Source: a virus
Direction: 5' to 3' (one strand)
Length of the DNA: 64,000 nucleotides
Virus record (IMG/VR): IMGVR_UViG_3300046683_000606
Span: 1-64,000 of that record
A program made the position numbers and the translations under genes. This document shows positions 3,045 to 51,612 of the stretch, piece after piece. Below the pieces are notes generated by a model. It was given only the letters and a program-made list of their open reading frames with translations. It was not told the origin of the DNA and ran no database searches. Numbering within the stretch: position 1 is the stretch's first letter; every line of letters begins with the position of its first letter.

Positions 3045-6000
3045 ATGGCCACGCAAGTTGACGATGAACTGGAGAAATACGCGAAACCGTCTGCTGCTAA
3101 GTCTAGCGACGATGATGAGTTGGAGAGGTATGCCAAGAAGTCTAGCGCTTCATCGAGTGGCGATTACGAGAGCGACTACGTTCCTCCTCCGGTAAAGCCG
3201 CACCAACCTGGATACCTTGAGCGCCTAGGTCAGTCGATCGGCGCTCCTACGTCTCTACACGAACTAGGCGAAGCCGCGACTCCTACTCCGCTGAAACTGC
3301 TGCGAACGCCTACAAACCCACAAGAAGCAAAAGACTATATGCGCTCCGCGGCATCTGTAGCGACCGGCGGAGCCTATCCACTTTTGGAAGGTGCCTACAA
3401 CTGGGGAAAGAAAGCCATTGGGAAAATAGGCGAAGGACTTGGAGAGGAGTACCAGGCGGCGAAAAACATCGGAGCCGGACAGCCGGTATTGCCGAACATA
3501 GGGAAAGCCGCTTATGGCGTCGTGCATGGCGGCGTCGGTTCGATTCCTTTCATCGGAGACCCGATCGAAAGGGCTGGAGAGGACGTACTCAACAAGAATT
3601 ACGCTGGCGCTGCCGGTGGACTGACCGGCGTCATTGGCCAGGTTGCCGCACCGGACATTGCGGAAGGTGCTCGCAGTTTGCGCTCTGGATTTTCTGGCGC
3701 ATTGGCAGATAGATTCGCTACTCCTGCGATTGCTCCAGGTCTTAGCGAACCGGCAACTGCAAATCTTGGCGAACCGATTGCCCGGCGCGGCGTAGAGAAA
3801 ACTCTGCGCGCTACCGGGATGCCGTCTGGGAATGTTGGATTGCGTGAATCGTTTTCGATCGCGGCGCCAGACCTGGCAGAAATTGAGCGCAAGCAACCTC
3901 TAGGAGAATCTGGAACAAAAGGCGGCGTCATCCGTCCGGATATGAGACTCCGGCAGACCGTCGAGAACATTAAGGACCGGCTGGACAGCCTTTGGAAAGA
4001 GGAGCGTCAACCACAAATCGATCGTAACGCTGAATTGCCGGCAATCTCCCGCGAGCAGTTGCTTGGTGATGCCACAATCGACCAACTAAAGAGAATTGAA
4101 AAAGCATTCAAGATGGAAATTCCCGATCAGATTAATCTTGGCGAAGCGGACAAGATGCTGGTCAAAGTGAATGCTCGTCTGCGACGTGCCGAAGGCATGA
4201 CCCCGGAAGCAAGAGCACTCGCCTTGGAACTGAGTCCAGACCTGCAGAAATTCAACGAGATGAAGGGCGAACTTCACAAGAGTATCGGGGACTTGCTGGA
4301 GCGTGTGAATGAACCTGGAGTAAAAGAGTTTAACCGTCGATACGGAGCATTGTCGGAAGTGCGGGACGCCCTACGTACCAGGATGAATCCGGTAGAAGCA
4401 GAAAGAGTACTGGACGCGGTGCGCGCTACTGGAGGATTGGGGCGCAACGTCAACCTATTCGAACGCTTGCACCTAAAAGCCTCTCCAGGCCGTTTGATGC
4501 AAAAGGGCTTGGAAGACCTTTCGCAGTCAAATCTGCAGATCACTCCGCCGGCACAGCGGCCGCCGGTGGCTGGATTGCTTCCACCGATTCCTGAACCTTT
4601 GCCCGGTCCTGTGCCTGAAAGTGGTTCGGTTCGCGGTGGACGGTGGACAACTCCTGCCGGATTGATTCCTCCGGCGCCGCCTATTGAGGGCCAATACATT
4701 CCGCCATTGGAGCGCGGGGCTGCTGACATTCCCTACGCGCACCAACCGACTCCGCCGACGGTTCCTCCAGAGTTTCGCGTACAAGCTCCGCGCATGGCAT
4801 CTGGAACGATTCCACCGATCGAGCCGGTTAGCAGTACCACGAACCTTCCCGGCGGTGGTGTCCGCAACGCTCCATTGCTGCCTGGTCCTGCGTCGATCGC
4901 TGCGACTGCTCCTCCTCCGGTTGCTGGTAAGTTCCGAATTGAGCCGATCGTGCCAGCAACTCCCACGGTCACTCGCGGAGAAATTGTCGGACGTGGCCAG
5001 CTATTCAAAGGGCCGGCACAGATTCCCCAGATTCCGCCTCTCATGCTGCCGGAAAAGGCAACTGGATTTGCGGCGAACAAGTTGCCGTTCAAGGCACCTC
5101 TTGAGCCTACTGCACCGACAAAGCCGATCATGGAAGGCGCTCCACCTATTGAGAGACCGACTGGCCAGCTACCTCTCAAGCCCGAAGCTGAACGTGCGGC
5201 TGCCATGAAGGAAATTAAACCGCCTTCGGCTAAAGGAAAAATCAAGCCGGTAGCGGAGCGCTTGAGTACCGAAGAGATTGCCGAAGCGGAAGGACTGCTG
5301 GCTTCCGAAGCCGGCGCAATGGCTACAGGCGACCGTCCAGGGGCTTACTTCGATGAGTCTGAACAAGGTGATGTGCGTCTAGGCTCTCGCGGCGCGCAGA
5401 CTAGGGGCGGAGATTGGCGCGGGGTAAAGAGTGGCCGGAGAATGTATCCGTTCATGCGGGAGAATCCCGACGTGAATCCGCAAGCGGTCCTGAAAGCGCT
5501 GCGGAATAAGGACTCTGCCGCCTACAACAAGCTAATCACGCGCGCCGATAACTTCATCAAAGGAAACTACGAAAAACCTCCAGGGATGGGCGCTATGGAC
5601 TTCCTGAAAGCACTTGAGAATCCAGACGCGGAGCCGGAGACGATCGAACCTGGCGCGGATGTATTCGCTCCTCCAGAACAAGAAGCTGCTCCAGCACCAA
5701 CGGCGCCGCGTATCCCTGAAATTGGCAAAGGACAGACGGGAGTGATTCCCGGCATGGAAGAGGACGTAGCAAAACAGAACCAAGGCGCGGCCAAGGTTGC
5801 CGGCGAGAAACTGACTGCCGAAGCTAACCGGCCAAAGGACATTTCCGCGGCCGCTGGCGAGATGGAAACCAAGTCTCCATTATTCCGCGGGACGGAAGCT
5901 AGTCCGCAACGGGAGATATTCGGCAATGCTCCGCCGGCCGCCAATGAGCCTCCGGCAACTATTGTTCCAGTCCTGAAAGAAACCGGATGGGGCTACGAAG

Positions 6001-6381: not shown

Positions 6382-6410
6382 TTGCAATAGAACGCAGATT
6401 TGCGTATAAC
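6382..6410 (+). promoter_or_regulatory. Promoter of the glycan cassette
   Basis: TTGCAA (6382-6387) and TATAAC (6405-6410) are separated by exactly 17 bp. The predicted transcription start lies about 6416-6417, next to the ATG at 6418, so the first cistron would be leaderless or nearly so. No Shine-Dalgarno sequence precedes that ATG, which agrees. Confidence 0.65.
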
Positions 6411-6417
6411 TTCCTGA

Positions 6418-8265
6418 ATGCGAATCGGGTTAGTTACCAACTTCAAAGGGCGAGGACTGGAATGCGATGCTCGCCTAATCACTCCGCTGATCGAATCTGC
6501 AGGGCATACCGTTGAACGGCTGCAGTATGACGAAAAGCACCACGGCAATTTCGACCTGCTCATATTCCTAGAAGTGGTTCCGCGGCATCTGGTACGTCTT
6601 TCCGACGCTCCACCGTGGGTTATCGTCAATCCTGAATTTCTGGTTCCGGAATACATTTCCACCATTCGCCGGTCGTTTGGACGGGTGTTTTCTAAAACTC
6701 ACGAAGCGCAACGCATCTCGAAAGGACTGTTCGGAGATAGGGCGGAATATATCGGATTCCTATCCGAAGACCGCTTCGATGAATCGATTGAAAGGCAAAT
6801 GACGTTTCTGCATGTTGCGGGACACAGCAAAGCCAAAGGAACGGACGCGATTATTGATGCTTGGCGGTGGACGCGGAACGGTGAACGTCTAAAAGCCAAG
6901 TTGACGGTGATAACTGATTTCCCGCCAGAGGATGTTCCCGAAGGCGTCACGATCTTGGAGAATGTGACCGATGCGGAACTGAAACGGCTGCAGAACGAGT
7001 GTCAGTTCCATTTGCAGCCTTCGCAGACCGAAGGATGGTCGCACGTCATTCACGAAGCAATGTCGGTGAACGCGACGATTATGACCGTAAGCGCTCCGCC
7101 GATGAACGAGATTAAAGCGGCTTACACAATTCCGTCCTGTAGCTCGACACTATTCAATTTGGTGCGGATGTATGAAGTCTCGGCGCTGGACGTTTATCAA
7201 GCTGTGGTGGACCTGCAAAAACTAGGACGTTGGGGATTTTCTGAACGCGGTACGCCACGCAAGGAATTTCTTGATGCCGTGAACACGTTCAAGGAAGCAT
7301 TCGCAGCGCAGTTGGCGACAGCCGGCCAATCCGCGGCGGTTAGGAACGCGAAAGCAAGCCGGACGATCGCCTTTATTGGCAACTTCGAAGCGGAACACTC
7401 GACAGAAAATCAAATCCTGTGGGCTTTGGAGCAAGTACTAGGCTATGAAGTCGATAAGCTGCAGGAAAACCGTATCAGCGCAGAGGACATAGAGGATGCT
7501 GCTTTAGGAGCGCGTGCGCTGCTTTGGGTTCGCACTCCCGGCTGGCTGCAGATAACAAATGACCGTATGTTCGAAGTTCTGGAGTACCTGAAACGGCGCA
7601 AGGTGGTGACCGCTTCGATTCACCTGGATAAGTTCTGGGACATACCGGAGCGGGAAGCGCTGATCGGTAAAATTCCTTTCTGGAAGACAGATTACGTATT
7701 CACGGCGGACGGATCGCGGCAAGATGATTTCAAGGCGCGGGGAGTGAACCATATCTGGATGCGGCCAGCGGTTTCCGAAGTCTATTGCCATCCTGGGACG
7801 CCAAGAGAGGAGTACCGCTGCGATGTGGGCTTTGTCGGAGCTAAAGGCGGCTATCACTCTGAATATCCTTTCCGTCAACGGATGGTCGAGTTCCTAGAAG
7901 AGACTTACGGAAGCAGGTTCAAGCACGTTCAAGGCGTTCGCGGCCACTTGCTAAACGACGTTTACGCTTCGATGAAAGTGGTGGTCGGAGATTGCTTCGG
8001 GGCGGGGATTCCTTACTATTGGAGTGATCGGTTGCCGGAAACTTGCGGACGCTTCGGCTATTTGCTGCACCCGACGGTAGAAGGGCTCAACGTTCCAGTT
8101 CTGCAGTACGAAGCACAGAATTTAGATTCCCTTCGCGAGTATGTTGACGCTGCTATTCAAATGCCTTGGGACGTGCGGAGAGATGCAGCCTTTAGCTGTG
8201 CCATGCACGTTCATTTGAACGACACCTGGACAATCCGCATGGCAGAGATTATGGAGCAACTGTGA
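6418..8265 (+). CDS. Two-domain glycosyltransferase (GT4-like plus CgeB-like)
   Basis: 615 residues. Residues about 1-290 look like a GT-B glycosyltransferase of the GT4 type: FLHVAGHSKAKGTDAIIDAW opens the C-terminal Rossmann half and LQPSQTEGWSHVIHEAM is the sugar-nucleotide binding E-x7-E region. Residues about 315-615 form a second GT-B-like unit resembling CgeB/group-1 transferases (FIGNFEAEHSTENQILWALE; IPYYWSDRLPETCGRFG). It would transfer sugars from nucleotide-sugar donors in the cytoplasm. It is first in the cassette, lacks an SD sequence, and overlaps the next gene by 4 nt (GTGA). Acceptor unknown. Confidence 0.8.
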   Translation: MRIGLVTNFKGRGLECDARLITPLIESAGHTVERLQYDEKHHGNFDLLIFLEVVPRHLVRLSDAPPWVIVNPEFLVPEYISTIRRSFGRVFSKTHEAQRISKGLFGDRAEYIGFLSEDRFDESIERQMTFLHVAGHSKAKGTDAIIDAWRWTRNGERLKAKLTVITDFPPEDVPEGVTILENVTDAELKRLQNECQFHLQPSQTEGWSHVIHEAMSVNATIMTVSAPPMNEIKAAYTIPSCSSTLFNLVRMYEVSALDVYQAVVDLQKLGRWGFSERGTPRKEFLDAVNTFKEAFAAQLATAGQSAAVRNAKASRTIAFIGNFEAEHSTENQILWALEQVLGYEVDKLQENRISAEDIEDAALGARALLWVRTPGWLQITNDRMFEVLEYLKRRKVVTASIHLDKFWDIPEREALIGKIPFWKTDYVFTADGSRQDDFKARGVNHIWMRPAVSEVYCHPGTPREEYRCDVGFVGAKGGYHSEYPFRQRMVEFLEETYGSRFKHVQGVRGHLLNDVYASMKVVVGDCFGAGIPYYWSDRLPETCGRFGYLLHPTVEGLNVPVLQYEAQNLDSLREYVDAAIQMPWDVRRDAAFSCAMHVHLNDTWTIRMAEIMEQL

Positions 8266-30420: not shown

Positions 30421-31218
30421 TCACCACTTTCCTAAATGTTGAATCCAAGAATCCTGCACAATATCAGCGTTGGCTGCGTCGGAGTAGCGGAGCCAGAAAT
30501 TTCCATAGTTTGCCCACTTGGAGCCCCACGAATTGCGGACCAGGAAACTACCTCCGTTTATGTTGTCGTCGTATCCGATTCCCAATACTTCATGGCCTCC
30601 CAAAACTTTCTCGCGGGTGTCGGGACTCCACACACCGTTTGCTGCAATGGCTTCGAAGGACTGATAGACAAGAAAGCCTATGCGGAAGTTGTATCCGGAA
30701 GCGATACACGACTTCATATCGTCAACGGTGGTGAGCCGGTGGTACTGGCCGGTCACATACTTCTTGGCGGAGTCTAATTGCTCCTGTGTCGGCGCCGTCG
30801 TGAAGTCTCCGGCAATGTAAGGCATCTCGGAGCGCAGCGCACAACCGAATTTGTTGAGTGCCATGCAGGAAGTACGCCCGTAACTGCCGGCGTCTCCTTC
30901 TGCAAGTGAGCCGTCAAGCAATCTCTCCACATAATAGATGAATGACGGTGAATACATTCCTTCCGTGCCTGGGGATACGACTTGGCCGCGACGATCGATC
31001 TCCTTCCAGTGAAGGTACTCGCGGTCTGCGGCTGCAGCGTGCGCGGTGCAAGAGCCTTCGTTTCCTTGGTCCAGTACCGGCCCCATTAGGTCCAGGTTAT
31101 CGGTGGCTGTAGCGGTAGCGGTCAAGAGCGGCGCGCGGCCTACGCCAAAGTCGCGGAAGTCTGGGGCATCCTTGCGGTAGCCGTAGCGTCTTCCTGCCGG
31201 TGATAGTTCAAGTGGCAT
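30421..31218 (-). CDS. Papain-like (C1A) cysteine protease
   Basis: 265 residues. The active-site region VLDQGNEGSCTAHA gives Gln51 (oxyanion) and Cys57, then GGHEVLGIGYDD gives His209, and FLVRNSWGSKWANYG gives Asn229: the complete C1A triad in order. No pro-domain or signal peptide is evident. Such proteases are uncommon in phages. Upstream of the SleB-like gene and downstream of a lipoprotein gene, it may attack host envelope proteins or process phage proteins. SD AGGGG precedes the ATG at 31218. Confidence 0.85.
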   Translation of the reverse strand: MPLELSPAGRRYGYRKDAPDFRDFGVGRAPLLTATATATDNLDLMGPVLDQGNEGSCTAHAAAADREYLHWKEIDRRGQVVSPGTEGMYSPSFIYYVERLLDGSLAEGDAGSYGRTSCMALNKFGCALRSEMPYIAGDFTTAPTQEQLDSAKKYVTGQYHRLTTVDDMKSCIASGYNFRIGFLVYQSFEAIAANGVWSPDTREKVLGGHEVLGIGYDDNINGGSFLVRNSWGSKWANYGNFWLRYSDAANADIVQDSWIQHLGKW

Positions 31219-32094: not shown

Positions 32095-32318
32095 TTTTTG
32101 TTGCTGCGAAACTCGGCGGCCTTCGGGCAAACACTCCAATGCGCTTCTAGTTTCTGCGATTCGTCGTCTTCGGTTCCTGGGATAGCGGACATTGGCAGCT
32201 TCTTCCCGCGTGGCGTCAAGAACCATTGCATTTCGGCGCCACACCCGCGACATGCTGAGGAGCCAGTGTACTTGTAGCCTAGGCTCTCCAGGCCGTCGCG
32301 AGTGTCTGGAAAAGGCAT
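32091..32318 (-). CDS. Small zinc-ribbon-like protein, 75 aa
   Basis: Contains CRGCGAEMQWFLTPRGKKLP and a later HWSVCPKA, a Cys-x2-Cys ... His/Cys pattern found in many small phage proteins that carry Pro-Arg-Gly-Lys-like motifs. Likely binds one zinc ion. ATGA overlap downstream. Confidence 0.6.
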   Translation of the reverse strand: MPFPDTRDGLESLGYKYTGSSACRGCGAEMQWFLTPRGKKLPMSAIPGTEDDESQKLEAHWSVCPKAAEFRSNKK

Positions 32319-32689
32319 TACTCTTTTTCTTTCTTGATGCGGACCTTCACGGTTTCTTTTTCGTGGACCATTTTTACTTCCACGCCATCGTGATTGTAGG
32401 ATTCTTTTTTGTGTTTCTTCATTAGGGAGAGAAGTACATCTTTGGTTTCAACTTCTGAACTGGTCAGCTTCATCCGATCATCGCGGATGTTGGCATACTC
32501 TCTAGCCGCGTCCTCTAGCTCCTCGATCTCCGGGTCTTCCATGCCGGGAAGTCTACTGGTCTTGCCGCGCTTCTTGTTTGCTTCGGAGAGCAGTTCCGGC
32601 TTGTGATCGTCCTCTTTCGGTCCGATTCCTTTGCGTCCGGTTTGCTTTGGCTTGTGCTTCGGGAGATAGTCCTCTACTTTTTTTGCCAA
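32318..32689 (-). CDS. Charged hypothetical protein, 123 aa
   Basis: TTG 32689 is preferred over the open upstream frame because AGGAGG lies 7 nt before it. The product is very Lys/Glu-rich, with a helical middle (EELEDAAREYANIRDDRMKL) and a basic C-terminus. Resembles the small charged proteins that often accompany phage replication genes. First gene behind the operator-promoter at 32716-32751. Confidence 0.55.
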   Translation of the reverse strand: MAKKVEDYLPKHKPKQTGRKGIGPKEDDHKPELLSEANKKRGKTSRLPGMEDPEIEELEDAAREYANIRDDRMKLTSSEVETKDVLLSLMKKHKKESYNHDGVEVKMVHEKETVKVRIKKEKE

Positions 32690-32715: not shown

Positions 32716-32751
32716 GACCGCAAGTTAGCGTACTGAAGTGTCGGAGGTCAA
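32716..32751 (-). promoter_or_regulatory. Minus-strand promoter with operator dyad (third site)
   Basis: The -35 TTGACC is the complement of 32746-32751; the -10 (TAACTT, complement of 32722-32727) is weak. Read on the plus strand, GACCGC-N6-GCGTAC (32716-32733) matches the operator dyad seen at 40611 and 45691. Drives the 32689 gene and those below it. Confidence 0.55.
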
Positions 32752-36196: not shown

Positions 36197-36654
36197 TACT
36201 CCCCCTTCCCTGCCCAATTCCGTATGGCCTCTTTGGGCAGGTCTGCGAAGCAACTATTCAAAAACTCTACCAGGTCTTCGCTCGTTTTTAGTCCAGCGGC
36301 GCTCGCTATATGGCCTACAGTTTCGCACCAGGAGTCCGCCAGAGACCTTGGAACGCGATACCGAAGGATTGTGTCAGGTTCCGTGTTTCGTGCCTTCCTA
36401 GAGGCTGCGTAGGCCGATAGCGTCGGTCCCTGGCCCATTTTAGTGATGGCTTCCTCGGTCCATCCTTGCTCGCGTTTGTGGTGAATGGCTTCTATCTTGC
36501 GTTTGAGTGCTGCTTTGGTGGCTGCGGTGGCTCTGGCCAGTATCTCCGCTTCGCGGTCTATGTGATCGGGAGCGCAAGCGTAGGCAACGGACACAATCGC
36601 GCTCCAGGCGCTACCATGCGCCGCGATGTAGGCTTGCATGGAGTTTGGTGTCAT
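36196..36654 (-). CDS. Hypothetical helical protein, 152 aa
   Basis: Mostly alpha-helical with an Ala/Lys/Arg-rich middle (ATAATKAALKRKIEAI) and a C-terminal part predicted helical. No motif recognised. ATGA overlap with the recombinase gene upstream, so probably co-translated with it. Confidence 0.5.
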   Translation of the reverse strand: MTPNSMQAYIAAHGSAWSAIVSVAYACAPDHIDREAEILARATAATKAALKRKIEAIHHKREQGWTEEAITKMGQGPTLSAYAASRKARNTEPDTILRYRVPRSLADSWCETVGHIASAAGLKTSEDLVEFLNSCFADLPKEAIRNWAGKGE

Positions 36655-38231
36655 GGCTGAAACAGGTTTCCGGCCGCACCTGGCTCGCGGTCGCGGTTGA
36701 GGATCGGCACTTTGTTGTGCTCAAATTCGACGCGGCCTATGCGCTTTAGCCCGGTGATGTTGGTGTATTGGCCTTTGGTCTGAAAGAATACTTCTGCTTC
36801 TTTGCCTTTGCCTTTGTCCAGATAGCCGTATATATCCTTATCCCAACATCCGGCTTCGCGTTTGGCGCCTTCGGGCGTTTTGATGGTGACCATTGCAAAA
36901 GACTTCTCGCCTTTGAGCGTAACGAATACGCGCTCAATGGTTCCTTTTACGATGAACGGCTCGGCGCCGGGGCTCTGTGATTTCCCGGCGCTGGCCGTTG
37001 TGGTTTTAGGGGTCTCCTTTCGTTCAGTCTTTCCCTTCGGGGGAAGGTCTTTGGGGAAAATCTCTACAATGCGATAGTTCAACTGTTTGCCCATCGCGTG
37101 AATGGTCGAAACGTCGGTCGGCAGGATGTGCCACCAATCGTCTTTCCATGTGGCAGTGCAATGCTTCTGAATTAGTTCAACTAGGTCGCCAATGTCGCCG
37201 CGTATGATCGTGCCTTGATCGGCGCTGTGGACTAACTCTATGGTTCCACGCGGTTTAGCTTCTTCATGCTTGCTGTCAAGTGGCGCAACTTGCGGCGGTT
37301 CCTGTTTTATGTCCATCTTGGTCTCTGCCAATTCCTTGTCGGCTGCTTCGACGCGCGCAAGCGCTGCCTCGGCCATCTTTGCTTTGTCTGAGCCCGGTTC
37401 GTGGCCGTGCCCAAGTTTCTCGTCCAGTACTTCCGCTTGACGCGCTTTGCCAAGCTGTCTGTTGGCTTCGTAGGTGACTGCTCTCCCTGATGCCGTGAAT
37501 CCGTTGGCGTCGGTGATGATTCGGCCTTCTGGTGTGTATTCCTGATCTGCCTGAACCATTTCAGCGTCGGTGTAAATATCGGACAGGTCGGGATAGCCTT
37601 TCCTGATCGCTAGAGCTTCGGCACACTTGGCGAGCATGTGACGCGGCATGCGATTGTAGAAGTCTGCTTTTGTTTCGCTCAGGTCTCGCGGTGCAAACTC
37701 ATCCCAGTAAGCTACTCCAACGATGGGATGCTCCAAACCCTTCTTCCAAAGGCGCACGGTGGCGCTCTCTGGTATCGGTCTTCCGGCTGGAGTCTTAGTA
37801 CCAGACATTACAAACGTCGGCTCATCGGCTCCGCCAAAGTCCCTGTGGTGCCGTCCAGCGAGCGCGCGCAACCCGTCAATCCCCATCTGAATAGTCATCT
37901 GGCGCCCGGCAATCCAGATTCCTTTTTCGTCCTGGTGATGTTTCGAAACGTTGCGGAACACGGCGTAAATCTGTTTAGTGATCGGGTCGAGCTTGTGTTT
38001 CTTGCAGGTCCATAGGAACAAAGCAAACTCGTCGTTATCGGCGCCCTTGCACACTGTACGCTTCAATAGTTCAATCTCATCACTGCTAAGCTGCCGTTCG
38101 CGGTTCCGTTGGACGATTACCGGACGTGGCAAGGAGACCGTTGGAACGATTGCCGTTGTATTAAAACGGCGTTGGTTCTTCCGGCTCACTGGTTTCGAAC
38201 GTCTTACGATCTTTCTTTTCGTCTTCGGCAT
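36651..38231 (-). CDS. bet: RecT/Bet-family single-strand annealing recombinase with C-terminal extension
   Basis: 526 residues from ATG 38231, supported by GAGGAG four bases upstream, although this gives a 71-nt overlap with the KTSC gene. LSSDEIELLKRTVCKGADND, FLWTCKKHKLDPITKQIYAV and MTIQMGIDGLRALAGRH are the conserved Bet segments. RecT/Bet proteins anneal complementary strands during phage recombination and replication. The family core is about 200-270 residues; here another 250 residues follow, including a nucleic-acid-binding-like segment (GTIERVFVTLKGEKSFAMVT). No partner exonuclease was recognised; the nuclease-like gene at 39286 is a candidate. Confidence 0.85.
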   Translation of the reverse strand: MPKTKRKIVRRSKPVSRKNQRRFNTTAIVPTVSLPRPVIVQRNRERQLSSDEIELLKRTVCKGADNDEFALFLWTCKKHKLDPITKQIYAVFRNVSKHHQDEKGIWIAGRQMTIQMGIDGLRALAGRHHRDFGGADEPTFVMSGTKTPAGRPIPESATVRLWKKGLEHPIVGVAYWDEFAPRDLSETKADFYNRMPRHMLAKCAEALAIRKGYPDLSDIYTDAEMVQADQEYTPEGRIITDANGFTASGRAVTYEANRQLGKARQAEVLDEKLGHGHEPGSDKAKMAEAALARVEAADKELAETKMDIKQEPPQVAPLDSKHEEAKPRGTIELVHSADQGTIIRGDIGDLVELIQKHCTATWKDDWWHILPTDVSTIHAMGKQLNYRIVEIFPKDLPPKGKTERKETPKTTTASAGKSQSPGAEPFIVKGTIERVFVTLKGEKSFAMVTIKTPEGAKREAGCWDKDIYGYLDKGKGKEAEVFFQTKGQYTNITGLKRIGRVEFEHNKVPILNRDREPGAAGNLFQP

Positions 38232-39643: not shown

Positions 39644-39868
39644 TCAAGTCATCCAAAGAACTGCGGCAACTACGGCTAGGGTTATTACGACCTTCACGGC
39701 GAACCAGGCGAGCGCTTTAACGAGTTTCACATTGGCGGCGCGGTCCTGCTTCCGTTCGCGAGCGTAGAATGCGCGCATCGCGTCCTGTTCGCGCTGATCT
39801 TCAATGTCCAGCGCTTTGATGCAGACTTCTACATCCTGACGGCTCGGTACGTTCAAACTAGGCTTCAC
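39644..39868 (-). CDS. Small membrane protein, 74 aa
   Basis: GTG 39868 chosen for GGAGG four bases upstream, though the open frame extends further. A charged helical first half is followed by a C-terminal transmembrane helix (FAVKVVITLAVVAAVLWM). Overlaps the exported PEP-CTERM-like gene by 11 nt. Confidence 0.55.
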   Translation of the reverse strand: MKPSLNVPSRQDVEVCIKALDIEDQREQDAMRAFYARERKQDRAANVKLVKALAWFAVKVVITLAVVAAVLWMT

Positions 39869-40316
39869 GTTTCCTCCGAAGGATTGGGCGGATGACTGCA
39901 AATACTAAACCAGCAAACAGAAAAGCGATTGTGGAAGATTCTGGCGTTGTAATAGGAACGTCGCCAAAGTCGATGGATGTGGGAGTGATCGAGACCGTCA
40001 CATTGGGATTTATCGCTATGCGGGATTGCGTCCACACAACTGGCTCCGCTTTCTCGTCGGTTATTTCAGTTGGTCCACCTGGCCAAACGTAAAGCCCGAT
40101 AGCTTTGAGTACTGCATTGATTGAAAGCTGTAGGGAGTCGGCGTTCGCGGCTATCTGCGCGTTTAACAGGTTTCCGGCCAGGTCTAGGTCAACGCCTGGG
40201 GCGAGCGGTAACACGGTGCTCGCGTCCAGTTCTGCGGCAACCTGCGTGATTGTGTCTGCGTGTGCTGTGGCCGCACAAAAGAAAGCTGCGGCGATTGCTA
40301 GGTTACGTAGTTGCAT
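39858..40316 (-). CDS. Exported protein with PEP-CTERM-like sorting tail, 152 aa
   Basis: ATG 40316 is chosen because AGGAGG lies just inside an upstream in-frame ATG. Residues 1-20 (MQLRNLAIAAAFFCAATAHA) are a Sec signal with a likely cut before Asp21. The C-terminus has PESST (125-129), a hydrophobic segment (130-142) and RRKR (147-150): the three-part layout of PEP-CTERM (exosortase) sorting signals, with Ser replacing the second Pro. PTSIDFGDVPI precedes it. If processed, the host exosortase would anchor it outside the cell. Confidence 0.65.
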   Translation of the reverse strand: MQLRNLAIAAAFFCAATAHADTITQVAAELDASTVLPLAPGVDLDLAGNLLNAQIAANADSLQLSINAVLKAIGLYVWPGGPTEITDEKAEPVVWTQSRIAINPNVTVSITPTSIDFGDVPITTPESSTIAFLFAGLVFAVIRPILRRKREA

Positions 40317-40587
40317 TTTTGTTTGCCTCCTCATAGGCTCGGCGTAATAAAATCTGTAACGGATCGGTCTCTGCTGCGTGTTCCCTGCATCCGCACTCAC
40401 CGTCAATCTGGATTCCTTCCACTTCAATGCTGCGGTCATGCTCGCATCCGTTTTTGCTGTGGTCGCTAATCGGGTGGAAGCACTCTCCACATTCAACTGG
40501 TTCCTGCTCGCGCGTTTTCCAGTTGAGGTATTCGGTCGGGTCTTGCTTGCGTTCCAGTGCTAGTTCTACTGCTCTGTCGTAGCTCAT
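40303..40587 (-). CDS. Cys/His-rich small protein, 94 aa
   Basis: ATG 40587 with AGGGGG upstream. VECGECFHPISDHSKNGCEH and a later IDGECGCREH form a probable zinc-binding cluster. First gene of the block driven by the minus promoter in the divergent region at 40608-40635. Its 14-nt overlap couples it to the exported protein gene. Confidence 0.55.
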   Translation of the reverse strand: MSYDRAVELALERKQDPTEYLNWKTREQEPVECGECFHPISDHSKNGCEHDRSIEVEGIQIDGECGCREHAAETDPLQILLRRAYEEANKNATT

Positions 40588-40607
40588 ATTTCCCCCTCAA
40601 TTCCTGC

Positions 40608-40635
40608 ATGGTACGCTGATTTGCGGACAAGTCAA
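40608..40635 (-). promoter_or_regulatory. Minus-strand early promoter with operator dyad
   Basis: The -35 TTGACT (complement of 40630-40635) and -10 TACCAT (complement of 40608-40613) are 16 bp apart. Read on the plus strand, GTACGC-TGATTT-GCGGAC (40611-40628) is an 18-bp imperfect dyad that overlaps the spacer and -10, as a repressor site would. Serves the block beginning at 40587. Confidence 0.7.
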
Positions 40636-40647
40636 GTTAAATCTTGC

Positions 40648-40676
40648 TTGCGTGTCCGCTTATTTGCGTGTATAAA
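40648..40676 (+). promoter_or_regulatory. Promoter of the repressor-like gene with operator dyad
   Basis: TTGCGT (40648-40653) and TATAAA (40671-40676) are 17 bp apart. GTCCGC-TTATTT-GCGTGT (40654-40671) lies in the spacer and matches the operator half-site pattern. The predicted start coincides with ATG 40683, implying a leaderless mRNA, as in lambda cI maintenance transcription. TTGCGTGT also occurs twice, 16 bp apart. Confidence 0.7.
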
Positions 40677-40682
40677 ACTCCT

Positions 40683-40895
40683 ATGGATGAATCTCAAGTG
40701 CTGGCCAGACTGACTAAGTACTCTAAGCGTTACAAGAACATTCGCGAGGCTGCGGCATCTCTCGGCATCTCTAAAACGTACATGGGTGATATTCTGCGCG
40801 GCCGTCGGCCGGTTCCGGATTCAGTCTTGGCCGCTATCGGTTTGGAGCGCGTTACCGGATACCGGCGCGTTGTCGCCTACAAGTCTGCGGATTGA
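40683..40895 (+). CDS. Helix-turn-helix repressor-like protein, 70 aa
   Basis: The only plus-strand gene inside the minus-strand early block. ATG 40683 has no SD and lies at the predicted transcription start. NIREAAASLGISKTYMGDIL is a Cro/XRE-type helix-turn-helix, followed by PDSVLAAIGLERVTGYR, a common sequence in such small phage regulators. With operator dyads at its own promoter and at three early minus promoters, it is the best candidate for the phage repressor or Cro. Its 3' end overlaps the convergent gene at 40821. Confidence 0.75.
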   Translation: MDESQVLARLTKYSKRYKNIREAAASLGISKTYMGDILRGRRPVPDSVLAAIGLERVTGYRRVVAYKSAD

Positions 40896-42627: not shown

Positions 42628-43707
42628 TTAGAAAGTGGCCTCCATTAGCTTACCGGCGGCGCGATCTAGTTCTGTCCGGCCATCGGCGTATTTGATCGTC
42701 TGAGAAAAGCGCGTGAGACCTTGCACCATTCCCCAAACGGTGTTACGTGGTCCGTCCTGGGCAACGTTGACGGCATCATAACCCGCGTCTATGGCTTTGC
42801 GGGTCAGTCCAGGGATACGCTTCCCAAAGAGCGCGTCAAGTACTTGCTCTTTGTTGGCGCCAATGATGCGCGTTTTGGAAGCTGCGATTTGTGCTTCAAG
42901 GTCCGAGGTTGATTCTTCGGCGTACCGGCGGACGGCGGCAAAGTAATGTGACCATTTGCTGCGAGCGTTTCCAACGTGGCGTACGCTGATTTCTACGACC
43001 TTGGACGCGCCCCATATGATGTGATTCCCGCACATTTCGCGGTACAGGAAGCGGGTTAACTTGAGTGCTGAGGCTCCAACTTCGGAGTTTTGCACGATTA
43101 CACCTTTGTAAACGGCGCCGTCGCTGCCGCGTTCGGTTACGGTCAAGTCTGAATTGCGAAGGAAGGCGAACATATCATGATCGGAAGCGTACAGGGCTGG
43201 AAAGTCGTCCTCTTTGCAGCGAATATCCGGCATGGCCGGTGCCCATCCCTGCGATTCCAATCCCAAGAGCCGTTCGGCTACTTCATAATTCCAAATGCGC
43301 GAATAGTCGTCGGTCACAATCGAACGGAGTAGCAGTCCGCCGTTCTCGTGGAACATCAAATTGGCTACTGCGTTGGCGGCGCCATTCTGCAAGCGTGCGG
43401 CCAGTCCGTAGTTAAGGTTCTGGCAAGCGAGGGTAGCGGGGAGTTCGCGCAAGTAGGATGCCGGTGCTTCGAGTCGGGCGCAAAGCTGGCCAAACGCCCA
43501 ATGCGTGAGCTTCGCGGGTACTCCGGCCTTGCCTACCAGTTGCACATCACCGTCCACGTTCTCAACGCGCAAGTCTGCGAAGGGCATGCGCTTTTCTTTG
43601 GCAATGTCAGCGTAGTGCTTGGTTGCGTCGTACAGCGATTGCAAGTCGGCGAAGCGTTCATCTGCTGGCCGTGTGCTCCATTGTTTATTTGCTGCAAAGA
43701 GTTCCAT
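42628..43707 (-). CDS. DUF932 phage/plasmid-like protein, 359 aa
   Basis: Start MELFAANKQWSTRPADERFA at ATG 43707 with AAAAGGA upstream. The central segment (GGLLLRSIVTDDYSRIWNYE; YKGVIVQNSEVGASALKLTR; CGNHIIWGASKVVEISVRH) matches the conserved blocks of DUF932 (phage/plasmid-like TIGR03299) proteins, common beside early genes and antirestriction genes. Role unproven. A 32-nt RNA motif (43723-43754) sits immediately before the RBS. Confidence 0.85.
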   Translation of the reverse strand: MELFAANKQWSTRPADERFADLQSLYDATKHYADIAKEKRMPFADLRVENVDGDVQLVGKAGVPAKLTHWAFGQLCARLEAPASYLRELPATLACQNLNYGLAARLQNGAANAVANLMFHENGGLLLRSIVTDDYSRIWNYEVAERLLGLESQGWAPAMPDIRCKEDDFPALYASDHDMFAFLRNSDLTVTERGSDGAVYKGVIVQNSEVGASALKLTRFLYREMCGNHIIWGASKVVEISVRHVGNARSKWSHYFAAVRRYAEESTSDLEAQIAASKTRIIGANKEQVLDALFGKRIPGLTRKAIDAGYDAVNVAQDGPRNTVWGMVQGLTRFSQTIKYADGRTELDRAAGKLMEATF

Positions 43708-43722
43708 TTGCTTTATCCTTTT

Positions 43723-44122: not shown

Positions 44123-44422
44123 TTACGCCTTCCTTTCCAGGTCAACGCGAGTAATACCGGCGTCGAACGGTTGCGGATCGGTGCGGTAGCAATTCTGAAA
44201 AGCGGTTGCGTGCCATTCCAGGTATTCGGAGTATTTCCGAAGTTCAAACCCGTAAATAGCGTGCAAGTCCAGCACGGTCGCATTGCGGGTCTGTCCATCG
44301 TCTGATATGCTGACGCGCTTTCCGCCTACGCAATAATCGTTAGAGTTAAAAGCGCGCGAAATGAAGCGGACAACATTAGGACTGCAAACGTGTCCGTGAT
44401 AACCACATTGTTGGCGGTCCAT
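44123..44422 (-). CDS. Small hypothetical protein, 99 aa
   Basis: MDRQQCGYHGHVCSPNVVRF onwards; Cys/His-containing start and a helical middle with YSEYLEWHATAF. TAATG coupling to the ArdC-N gene upstream. No family recognised. Confidence 0.5.
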   Translation of the reverse strand: MDRQQCGYHGHVCSPNVVRFISRAFNSNDYCVGGKRVSISDDGQTRNATVLDLHAIYGFELRKYSEYLEWHATAFQNCYRTDPQPFDAGITRVDLERKA

Positions 44423-45225
44423 TAGAACACCACATCCTGCTTGGCAGTCTTCGGGAATCCAGGGCGGGAAAACGGCCGGTCAAATGATGGAACGTGGCGC
44501 GGTGTCGGCTTGGGCAGTTCCGCAATAATGTCCATGATGGACACCTGCTCGCCACGCATTGCGCGGTCATAGGTGGAGTCTTTCGGCGGTGGCAGTGGTT
44601 TAACCGGCTTTACCGGCGAGGGGAATTTAGAATCGGGGAACGTGTAAGTTTTCGGCGGTTCGGGAGTCTCGCGTACCAGTTCACAATTCTCGTCAAGCGT
44701 GAAAGTCTCAATCGTGGCTTCGGGGGAAAACTTCTCAATCTGCCGGTTAACATGCACGGCGGTTGAGTGGTCCAGCAATTCGGCTTCGTCGGTGTCTTCT
44801 TCACCGGCATACGGGATATTTTCCGGCGTGGCGTCGGGCTCTGGCAGTTCAAGCGGCGCGGTGGGCGTCGGGACGCGCACGTACTGTTTTGAGATGTGGG
44901 CGTCAATCACATTTCCGCGAATGTCCACCGCTTCCGTCTGCGATACGTGGAATACGGTCACAGTCCAGGGACGGCGCTCCTCACGGCCGTTCTTGCCAGT
45001 CTTGGTGATAAAGGTGAGACACTTCACGCCATGTTCACCTTTGCGAACCTGGCGGCCGTTCGCCTTCCATGCGTTGTACGAGAATACGTTAACGCGGGGA
45101 ATGATCTGATCTTCTGGGATTCCCTTCGCCATAAAGCCGCGAATGATCGGCGCATAATTCGAAAGGGATTGACCGGATACTGCGCGGGTGAGTGCTTCTT
45201 GCTGGATTGCTGCTGAGGTGGCCAT
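44422..45225 (-). CDS. ArdC-N-terminal-domain protein (antirestriction-like), 267 aa
   Basis: Residues about 15-110 match the ArdC N-terminal domain: SLSNYAPIIRGFMAKGI, NVFSYNAWKANGRQVRKGEH and WTVTVFHVSQTEAVD. In plasmid ArdC this domain binds single-stranded DNA and is followed by a metalloprotease; here no HExxH is present and the remaining 150 residues are Pro-rich and acidic, so it may bind DNA only. Preceded by copy B of the 32-nt RNA motif. Confidence 0.75.
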   Translation of the reverse strand: MATSAAIQQEALTRAVSGQSLSNYAPIIRGFMAKGIPEDQIIPRVNVFSYNAWKANGRQVRKGEHGVKCLTFITKTGKNGREERRPWTVTVFHVSQTEAVDIRGNVIDAHISKQYVRVPTPTAPLELPEPDATPENIPYAGEEDTDEAELLDHSTAVHVNRQIEKFSPEATIETFTLDENCELVRETPEPPKTYTFPDSKFPSPVKPVKPLPPPKDSTYDRAMRGEQVSIMDIIAELPKPTPRHVPSFDRPFSRPGFPKTAKQDVVF

Positions 45226-45687: not shown

Positions 45688-45716
45688 ACAGTACGCTAAA
45701 CTGCGGACAACGTCAA
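45688..45716 (-). promoter_or_regulatory. Early promoter with operator dyad at the strand switch
   Basis: The -35 TTGACG (complement of 45711-45716) and -10 TACTGT (complement of 45688-45693) are 17 bp apart. GTACGC-TAAACT-GCGGAC (45691-45708) matches the operator at 40611 in 12 of 12 arm positions. It should start the minus-strand early transcript. A plus-strand -10 (TAGAAT, 45768-45773) for the terminase operon lies nearby. Confidence 0.7.
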
Positions 45717-45781
45717 GCAAATTCGTATGAGTAAACGAAATTAATTTAAGTTTGTGAGTACTGATGCTAGAATCGCGGCAT

Positions 45782-46399
45782 ATGAAGGGCGGGAAAAAGA
45801 CTTATGTCCGTTCTGATGCTCAAAGAAGATTTGAGGTCTTCGCCCGTCAATACGTCATTCATAACTTCGACGGTCCTAGGGCTGCTATTGCTGCTGGATA
45901 CTCTCCTAAGACTGCTGGCGTCACTGCTTCTCAACTTCTAACAAAGCCTAAGATTAAGGGGCTGATCGCCAAGTTTTCAGCCCCAGCAATAAAAAAACAC
46001 GACATTTCGATTGAAAGAACGTTAGAAGAAATTGCGCGTTGCGCGTTCATTGATCCCAGGAAGTTATTCCGGGCTGACGGTTCACTGCTGCCGGTCCAGG
46101 AACTAGACGCTGATACGGCCGCATGTATTGCGGGGATTGAACAAACGGGCAAGCGTACGAAGCGCGTCAAGCTGACTGACAAGCTGCGCGCGCTAGATAT
46201 GTTGGGACGGTTTCATAAGATATTCGCTGAGGATCGGACTACAGTTGATATGGGCGTGCGCGTGATTGTTGTGGATGCTCCCAGGCCACCGCGTCTAGTA
46301 GGCTCCGGTCCTGCTACGGCGTCGAACGGTAACGGACATAATGGGAATGGCCACCATAACGGAAACGGCCATAAGCCCGACCAGGATGGCGACGAATAG
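45782..46399 (+). CDS. terS: Terminase small subunit
   Basis: 205 residues from ATG 45782; ATG 45764 is in frame, but the TAGAAT -10 at 45768-45773 would be inside it, and the predicted start then sits at 45782. FEVFARQYVIHNFDGPRAAI then AAGYSPKTAGVTASQLLTKP is the DNA-binding helix-turn-helix of Terminase_2 proteins. The C-terminal 30 residues are Gly/Asn/His-rich. It recognises packaging sites and delivers the genome to the large subunit. Confidence 0.85.
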   Translation: MKGGKKTYVRSDAQRRFEVFARQYVIHNFDGPRAAIAAGYSPKTAGVTASQLLTKPKIKGLIAKFSAPAIKKHDISIERTLEEIARCAFIDPRKLFRADGSLLPVQELDADTAACIAGIEQTGKRTKRVKLTDKLRALDMLGRFHKIFAEDRTTVDMGVRVIVVDAPRPPRLVGSGPATASNGNGHNGNGHHNGNGHKPDQDGDE

Positions 46400-51435: not shown

Positions 51436-51612
51436 ATGCCGGCAAAAGAAATCATGCCGCTATTCCGAGCAGGGAAACTCCATTCGGGGAGCGGCGGCAT
51501 TGTGAAGAAACCCAAACAAGCAAAAGCAATTTTGCTTTCTTATCTCCGCAAGGAAGGCCACGACATTCCCGAAAAGAAATCAACCGGATTCCATAGCAAG
51601 AAGGCGAGGTAG
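51436..51612 (+). CDS. DUF6496-like small basic phage protein, 58 aa
   Basis: Starts MPAKEIMPLFRAGKLHSGSG directly at the previous TAA. The MPLFxxGxLxSGSGG start followed by KKPKQAKAILLS is the pattern of a small basic phage protein family found near head genes. Function unknown. Confidence 0.6.
   Translation: MPAKEIMPLFRAGKLHSGSGGIVKKPKQAKAILLSYLRKEGHDIPEKKSTGFHSKKAR

Follow-up and report, generated by a model that had tools for sequence, protein, structure and literature searches.

A 70-amino-acid putative repressor of the XRE/Cro type encoded by an uncultured phage probably binds, as a dimer, to 18-bp dyads that lie in five of the phage's promoters, and would thereby shut the early operons and cap its own level; we put the probability of this reading at roughly 0.7. 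The window, that is, the whole stretch of DNA analysed, comprises 64.0 of the 68.6 kb of virus record IMGVR_UViG_3300046683_000606, a phage with mostly unknown genes for which there is now a predicted regulator, a target sequence and five target promoters. The sites are best explained as copies of an operator with the putative consensus GTMCGC-(A/T-rich)6-GCGKAC, a target sequence that appears to be unusually well supported.

The phage and its relatives

Genes recognised in the window include those for terminase subunits, RecT, DUF932 and an ArdC-like protein. Leftward genes span about 45.6 to 30.4 kb, and rightward genes comprise terminase and a glycan-modification cassette. Among 22 protein stretches scanned in the leftward region with Pfam and/or PHROGs (the region has further open reading frames), no repressor was found, and the convincing matches were limited to RecT, ArdC-type and DUF932. 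Two relatives, G001 (68,462 bp) and G002 (68,202 bp, inverted), were used for comparison, the matching blocks of G002 having about 69-86% DNA identity; a partial relative, G003, is 99.99% identical to G002 over 12,992 bases. Exact 127-bp end repeats are present in G001 and G002, and 247-bp end repeats of 98.4% identity in the phage's own genome (G000); the three genomes therefore look complete. Near DNA matches to the phage were absent among phage records, as were capsid-protein matches among phage records and bacterial genomes.

The regulator

The regulator gene (P0001, positions 40683-40895, plus strand) is the lone plus-strand gene among minus-strand genes and encodes a putative XRE/Cro-type helix-turn-helix (HTH) protein with the recognition helix ISKTYMGDILRGR. 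It matches PF13560 (HTH_31) with an E-value of 2.9e-5 and 24.7 bits, below the curated cut-off of 27, and gives weak matches to repressor families in PHROGs, including the phrog_1468 repressor (3.3e-4). A low-confidence structure model (mean pLDDT 66) places the HTH helices at residues 20-27 and 31-38 and leaves the C-terminal part unresolved; Foldseek returned no match with an E-value below 0.001, the best being ClgR at 0.13. In size and in the placement of its sites the predicted product fits a small single-domain repressor of the Cro-like kind, and the best reading of the 70-aa protein is as a putative Cro-sized, self-limiting repressor of early operons. At its 3' end (40821-40895) the gene overlaps an opposite-strand 160-aa gene by 75 bp.

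The first-pass annotation had proposed a 70-aa repressor with a leaderless start, and a small HTH protein with such a start is supported. The ATG at 40683 lies 6 nt after the -10 box TATAAA with no Shine-Dalgarno sequence, and the leaderless start is supported by the relative L002, in which an in-frame stop three codons 5' of the ATG removes the longer reading frame. The transcripts of both the regulator and the first glycan gene are accordingly predicted to be leaderless.

Predicted operators and their promoters

All five operators lie between or over the -35 and -10 boxes of sigma70-like promoters with spacers of 16-18 bp, a placement that, like the sites themselves and their conservation, can be read from the DNA. 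O1 (GTACGC-TGATTT-GCGGAC in plus-strand letters, 40611-40628, acting on the minus strand) is inside P_left2 (TTGACT-N16-TACCAT, 40608-40635, minus), which was found by an unguided scan and precedes a leftward operon starting at 40587. The first gene of this operon (40303-40587, minus) is divergent from the regulator and encodes a Cys-rich 94-aa protein with no Pfam or PHROGs match; its genes continue leftward to a RecT-like gene at 36651-38225 (RecT, PF03837, 4.8e-17). O2 (GTCCGC-TTATTT-GCGTGT, 40654-40671, plus), the predicted weakest site, is inside the regulator promoter P_reg (TTGCGT-N17-TATAAA, 40648-40676, plus), the spacing of which is kept in L010 as TTGCGC-N17-TATAAC. O1 and O2 are both conserved in G001 and G002, the O2 counterpart in G002 being GTCCGC-TATTTT-GCGTAT.

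Three further promoters carry the same dyad. O3 (GTACGC-TAAACT-GCGGAC, 45691-45708, minus) is inside P_left1 (TTGACG-N17-TACTGT, 45688-45716, minus), which serves a leftward operon from 45632 that includes an ArdC-N-like gene (44422-45225, ArdcN just below cut-off) and a DUF932 gene (42628-43719, 1.1e-7). O3 is also present in G001 but is missing from G002, which has different sequence and a different promoter at that place. O4 (GACCGC-AAGTTA-GCGTAC, 32716-32733, minus) overlaps the -10 box of P_left3 (TTGACC-N18-TAACTT, 32722-32751, minus), and the first gene of that operon (32318-32689, minus) has a TTG start with AGGAGG 7 nt upstream; in G002 the promoter has the same form (TTGACT-N18-TAATTT) and the operator is conserved at the same gene (31057) with unrelated flanks. 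O5 (GAACGC-AGATTT-GCGTAT, 6390-6407, plus) is inside P_GT (TTGCAA-N17-TATAAC, 6382-6410, plus), another promoter from the unguided scan, and is conserved at 51465 in G001 and 57486 in G002. An ATG lies 7 nt past the -10 box with no ribosome-binding site and begins a glycosyltransferase-like gene (6418-8265, plus; phrog_28745, 2.5e-40), the first of a glycan-modification cassette of about 6.4-14.8 kb with an epimerase, methyltransferases and GT2 downstream.

The unguided scan for the best TTG..TA pairs gave 13 units in the window, among them the promoters of O1 and O5 and a leftward unit at 40669-40697 that touches O2. For O2, O3 and O4 the promoters were identified by eye, and promoter scans alone are weak evidence.

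The first-pass annotation had listed the dyads at 40611, 40654, 45691 and 32716, all of which were found at these positions, had placed the first two over the leftward and regulator promoters, as O1 in P_left2 and O2 in P_reg confirm, and had assigned the other two to further promoters, a set to which the fifth site at 6390-6407, absent from its list, is added here. Its description of the arms at 45691 as perfect is not strictly accurate: the arms are complementary in 5/6 positions at both 45691 and 40611 and in 4/6 at both 40654 and 32716.

Statistical support for the operators

Counting of the raw motif was dropped as evidence. With up to two mismatches, GTNCGCN6GCGNAC has 40 matches against 42.3 expected, which is not above chance; with none it matches only at 40611 and 45691. 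Clustering of 6-6-6 dyads de novo within the window was likewise not decisive, the pair 40611/45691 forming one of many two-member clusters.

A different picture was obtained with a matrix derived solely from three sites in the diverged relative G002. Its top five scores in the window fall on 40611 (22.8), 45691 (21.1), 32716 (20.9), 6390 (17.3) and 40654 (16.2), and the next are 12.8 and 9.3. Over 60 Markov shuffles, 0.00 sites were expected to reach the first three scores and 0.13 to reach that of 40654, the lowest of the five; when only the arms are scored, 40654 loses significance (1.77 expected) and the support for 32716 becomes weak (0.65). In the reverse direction, a matrix made of the five sites in the window places its top four scores in G002 at 31057, 21715, 21670 and 57486 (26.6-20.6; next 13.5), and in the remainder of the phage's own genome (63500-68569) it finds nothing above 7.9. 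The condition that the first-pass annotation named as refuting it, sites at random frequency elsewhere in the genome, is nearly reached by the raw motif, but with the matrix defined from an independent relative the sites are far above chance. At the four sites shared by G000 and G002, 46/48 arm positions are identical, against 15/24 in the dyad centres and 50/120 in the 15-bp ungapped flanks.

The recognition helix and operator in other phages

In unrelated phages, relatives of the regulator that share the helix ISK-Y-DIL-GR are likewise accompanied by promoters with this operator. Weak homologs came from searching phage records with the protein, among them Rctr41k_13 of Virus Rctr41k (KX853513), with the helix GISKQYLNDILKGR. 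The 41-kb Rctr41k genome has a single strong site, the perfect palindrome GTACGCTAATTAGCGTAC, inside the TTGACA-N17-TACAAT promoter of the regulator's operon; it scores 27.4, compared with 8.7 for the next site and 20.0 for the best of 150 shuffles. The regulator resembles Rctr41k_13 in its ISKQYLNDILKGR helix and in the perfect operator copy at the Rctr41k operon promoter, whereas Rctr41k differs from this phage in having a single site, a co-directional operon and integrase-like genes.

A wider protein search, in which 16 loci were scanned, found sites scoring 19.3-27.4 at 6/6 loci with ISK/VSK-QY helices; counting all loci outside the matrix with the ISK-Y-DIL helix (VSK in two), Rctr41k included, 7/7 have a site of at least 19.3. 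One of these records, G004 (locus L103), is unrelated to the Rctr-like clade and has eight GTAYGC-N6-GCGTAC sites in 57 kb, the reversed-pattern control giving 0. Its regulator is a longer XRE protein with the same recognition helix. Among distinct homologs without SK, 1/11 reaches a site score of at least 15 (L086, 18.7), near-duplicates within the 11 being counted once (L090 with L089, L093 with L091). Fisher's exact test gives p 0.00025 when loci are counted and 0.038 when clades are (2/2 vs 1/11) for the association of helix and operator, values to be read in the light of six of the seven SK loci forming one Rctr-like clade and of the SK split having been chosen after seeing the data.

Several loci call for individual comment. 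The MT835765 homolog (L082) belongs to another XRE type, its sites (13.4 and 6.9) resembling GTTCGC-N6-GCGAAC, and was left out of the comparison; counted as non-SK below threshold, it changes 1/11 to 1/12. The 13.98 site of L080 is flanked by convergent genes and resembles a terminator, the 14.25 site of L036 is inside a DUF932 match, and L033 has one site scoring 17.7. A DNA-only reverse search (TTGACNNN plus operator) returned 30 viral stretches, of which six hold an ISK-Y gene and two are in records having it; 0/22 of the others hold an ISK-Y HTH, and no new regulator emerged.

The link between helix and operator, which is visible in the sequences, offers a rule by which the target sites of such regulators could be predicted in phages known from metagenomes. 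More tentatively, and with odds clearly below even, the helix ISK-Y-DIL-GR and the operator GTMCGC-N6-GCGKAC may be a portable pair common to unrelated phages; in this integrase-less lineage the pair would put all leftward operons and the glycan cassette under one repressor that acts in a graded, self-limiting way, setting the pace of the lytic programme and not choosing lysogeny.

Comparison with known regulators

The OR region of phage lambda, with CI and Cro, combines a small HTH regulator, divergent promoters, 17-18 bp dyads over both promoters and a leaderless regulator start. The present region is similar in its small HTH regulator, dyads over divergent promoters and leaderless start, but differs in having one repressor, two dyads, no integrase found and operators at three further promoters. 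The telomere phage PY54 has a Cro-type repressor, an 18-bp palindromic operator and leaderless cI/cro transcripts, together with a CI partner and one operator, and its Cro is said not to repress itself (PMC4488713). The resemblance lies in the Cro-type repressor, the 18-bp operator and the leaderless start, and the difference in the five operators here, the regulator's own promoter included.

The report on HigA2 of Vibrio cholerae describes a footprinted operator, TGTACGC-N5-GCGTACA, after the -35 and over the -10 box, autorepression, and base contacts by Arg68, Glu71, Asn72 and Arg77 (PMC11006873). HigA2 shares with the phage regulator an XRE-like HTH, the half-site GTACGC/GCGTAC, operator placement in the promoter and autorepression (here predicted); it differs in a spacer of 5 bp versus 6 bp, in the base-contact residues reported for it and in belonging to a toxin-antitoxin operon. 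An adjacent HigB toxin gene in the same operon, as expected of a HigA antitoxin, is not found beside the phage gene, which stands alone between genes of the opposite strand. ClgR, according to a review, recognises GTTCGC-N5-GCG and activates clp genes in actinobacteria (PMC9775585). It is akin to the regulator in its XRE fold (the best, though weak, fold match), CGC/GCG core and GTTCGC half-site, and a common S-x-x-Y-L helix is seen in their alignment; it differs in being an activator and in its N5 spacing. The HigA2 and ClgR operators show that XRE-type proteins read such half-sites. The regulator is a well-supported new member of the XRE autorepressor kind and not a new kind, and one-repressor control over several gene groups is an ordinary kind of circuit. 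No mention of the phage operator or of Rctr41k was found in the open-access literature searched.

Proposed circuit and alternative explanations

Five operator copies in sigma70-type promoters would place three leftward, early-type operons, the glycan cassette and the regulator itself under one protein. After infection all five promoters would fire and the 70-aa protein would accumulate; judged from matrix scores only, it would occupy the better-matching O1, O3 and O4, then O5 and finally O2, the weakest, at which point early transcription would be off and the regulator level capped. We infer dimer binding, repression, the occupancy order, the timing and the leaderless transcription starts. The operators cover RNA polymerase positions and the spacers are normal, which makes repression the likely effect, and since the operators are placed to block both divergent promoters, joint repression with negative autoregulation is predicted and not bistability: one regulator blocking itself implies negative feedback together with joint early shut-off. 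That the glycan-modification cassette would be among the targets hints at a surface modification coordinated in time with the early genes.

A lambda-like switch depends on a pair of repressors that antagonise each other at shared operators and, for its use, on a lysogenic state. Where the first-pass annotation saw such a switch in miniature, the operators on divergent promoters are indeed present, but the two-repressor part is not borne out: there is one HTH gene in the divergent pair, and no match to PF00589, PF00239 or PF00665 indicates integration machinery. It is rather unlikely that the regulator is a prophage-type immunity repressor supporting integrase-less persistence, for example extrachromosomally, with the divergent region as a true lysogeny switch. 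Such a repressor would silence three operons from few sites, the gene is divergent from an early operon, and its distant homolog in Rctr41k adjoins xerD/xerC-like integrase genes; however, the phage's own genome gave no match to the integrase, serine recombinase, rve and ParA families (PF00589, PF00239, PF00665, PF13614), which makes a lysogenic switch less likely, nor was PF00589 matched in a profile search of G001 and G002, whose 127-bp end repeats suggest complete genomes. No second repressor was recognised, and O2, inside the regulator's own promoter, opposes stable high-level maintenance.

It is improbable, too, that the dyads serve a host regulator or a different phage protein and that the 70-aa gene is only a neighbour. 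The host XRE proteins HigA2 and ClgR use such half-sites, and of four bacterial stretches in which a promoter carries the operator, two have other XRE genes close by (L134, L135). In phages of the window's clade, however, the start of the regulator is itself flanked by two sites, and ISK-Y regulators of unrelated phages also come with this operator. Activation, finally, is very improbable. MerR-type regulators have their sites in promoter spacers, as the operators do here, but the spacers of 16-18 bp are already near-optimal for sigma70, O4 covers the -10 box itself and the modelled fold appears to be XRE, not MerR. A self-limiting repressor of the early operons is the reading preferred here.

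Additional observations

In a related phage, a distant homolog of the regulator (L029, 9667-9900, minus) also has an apparently leaderless ATG and is transcribed divergently from DUF932; a dyad of its own, TGTCAACCATAGTGTTGACA, lies between the two promoters. A related fragment, L014, in which no regulator homolog was found, has two variant sites (4242-4294, GTTCGC/ATTCGC arms) at the apparent P_left1 position. The P_left1 region of G002 (L010, 8100-8800) is of different sequence, with an HNH-type-like gene seen by eye and a promoter without an operator. The protein encoded at 39861-40313 (minus) has no Pfam match, and a PEP-CTERM-like sorting tail (PESSTIAFLFAGLVFAVIRPILRRKREA) was seen by eye in its translation. 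Just 5' of the terminase small subunit gene, a block at 45751-45774 (plus), TTTGTGAGTACTGRTGCTAGAATC, is kept in G002; the terminase ATG at 45782 lies 8 nt after TAGAAT with no operator there, and a late-type promoter and a leaderless gene are predicted for this subunit.
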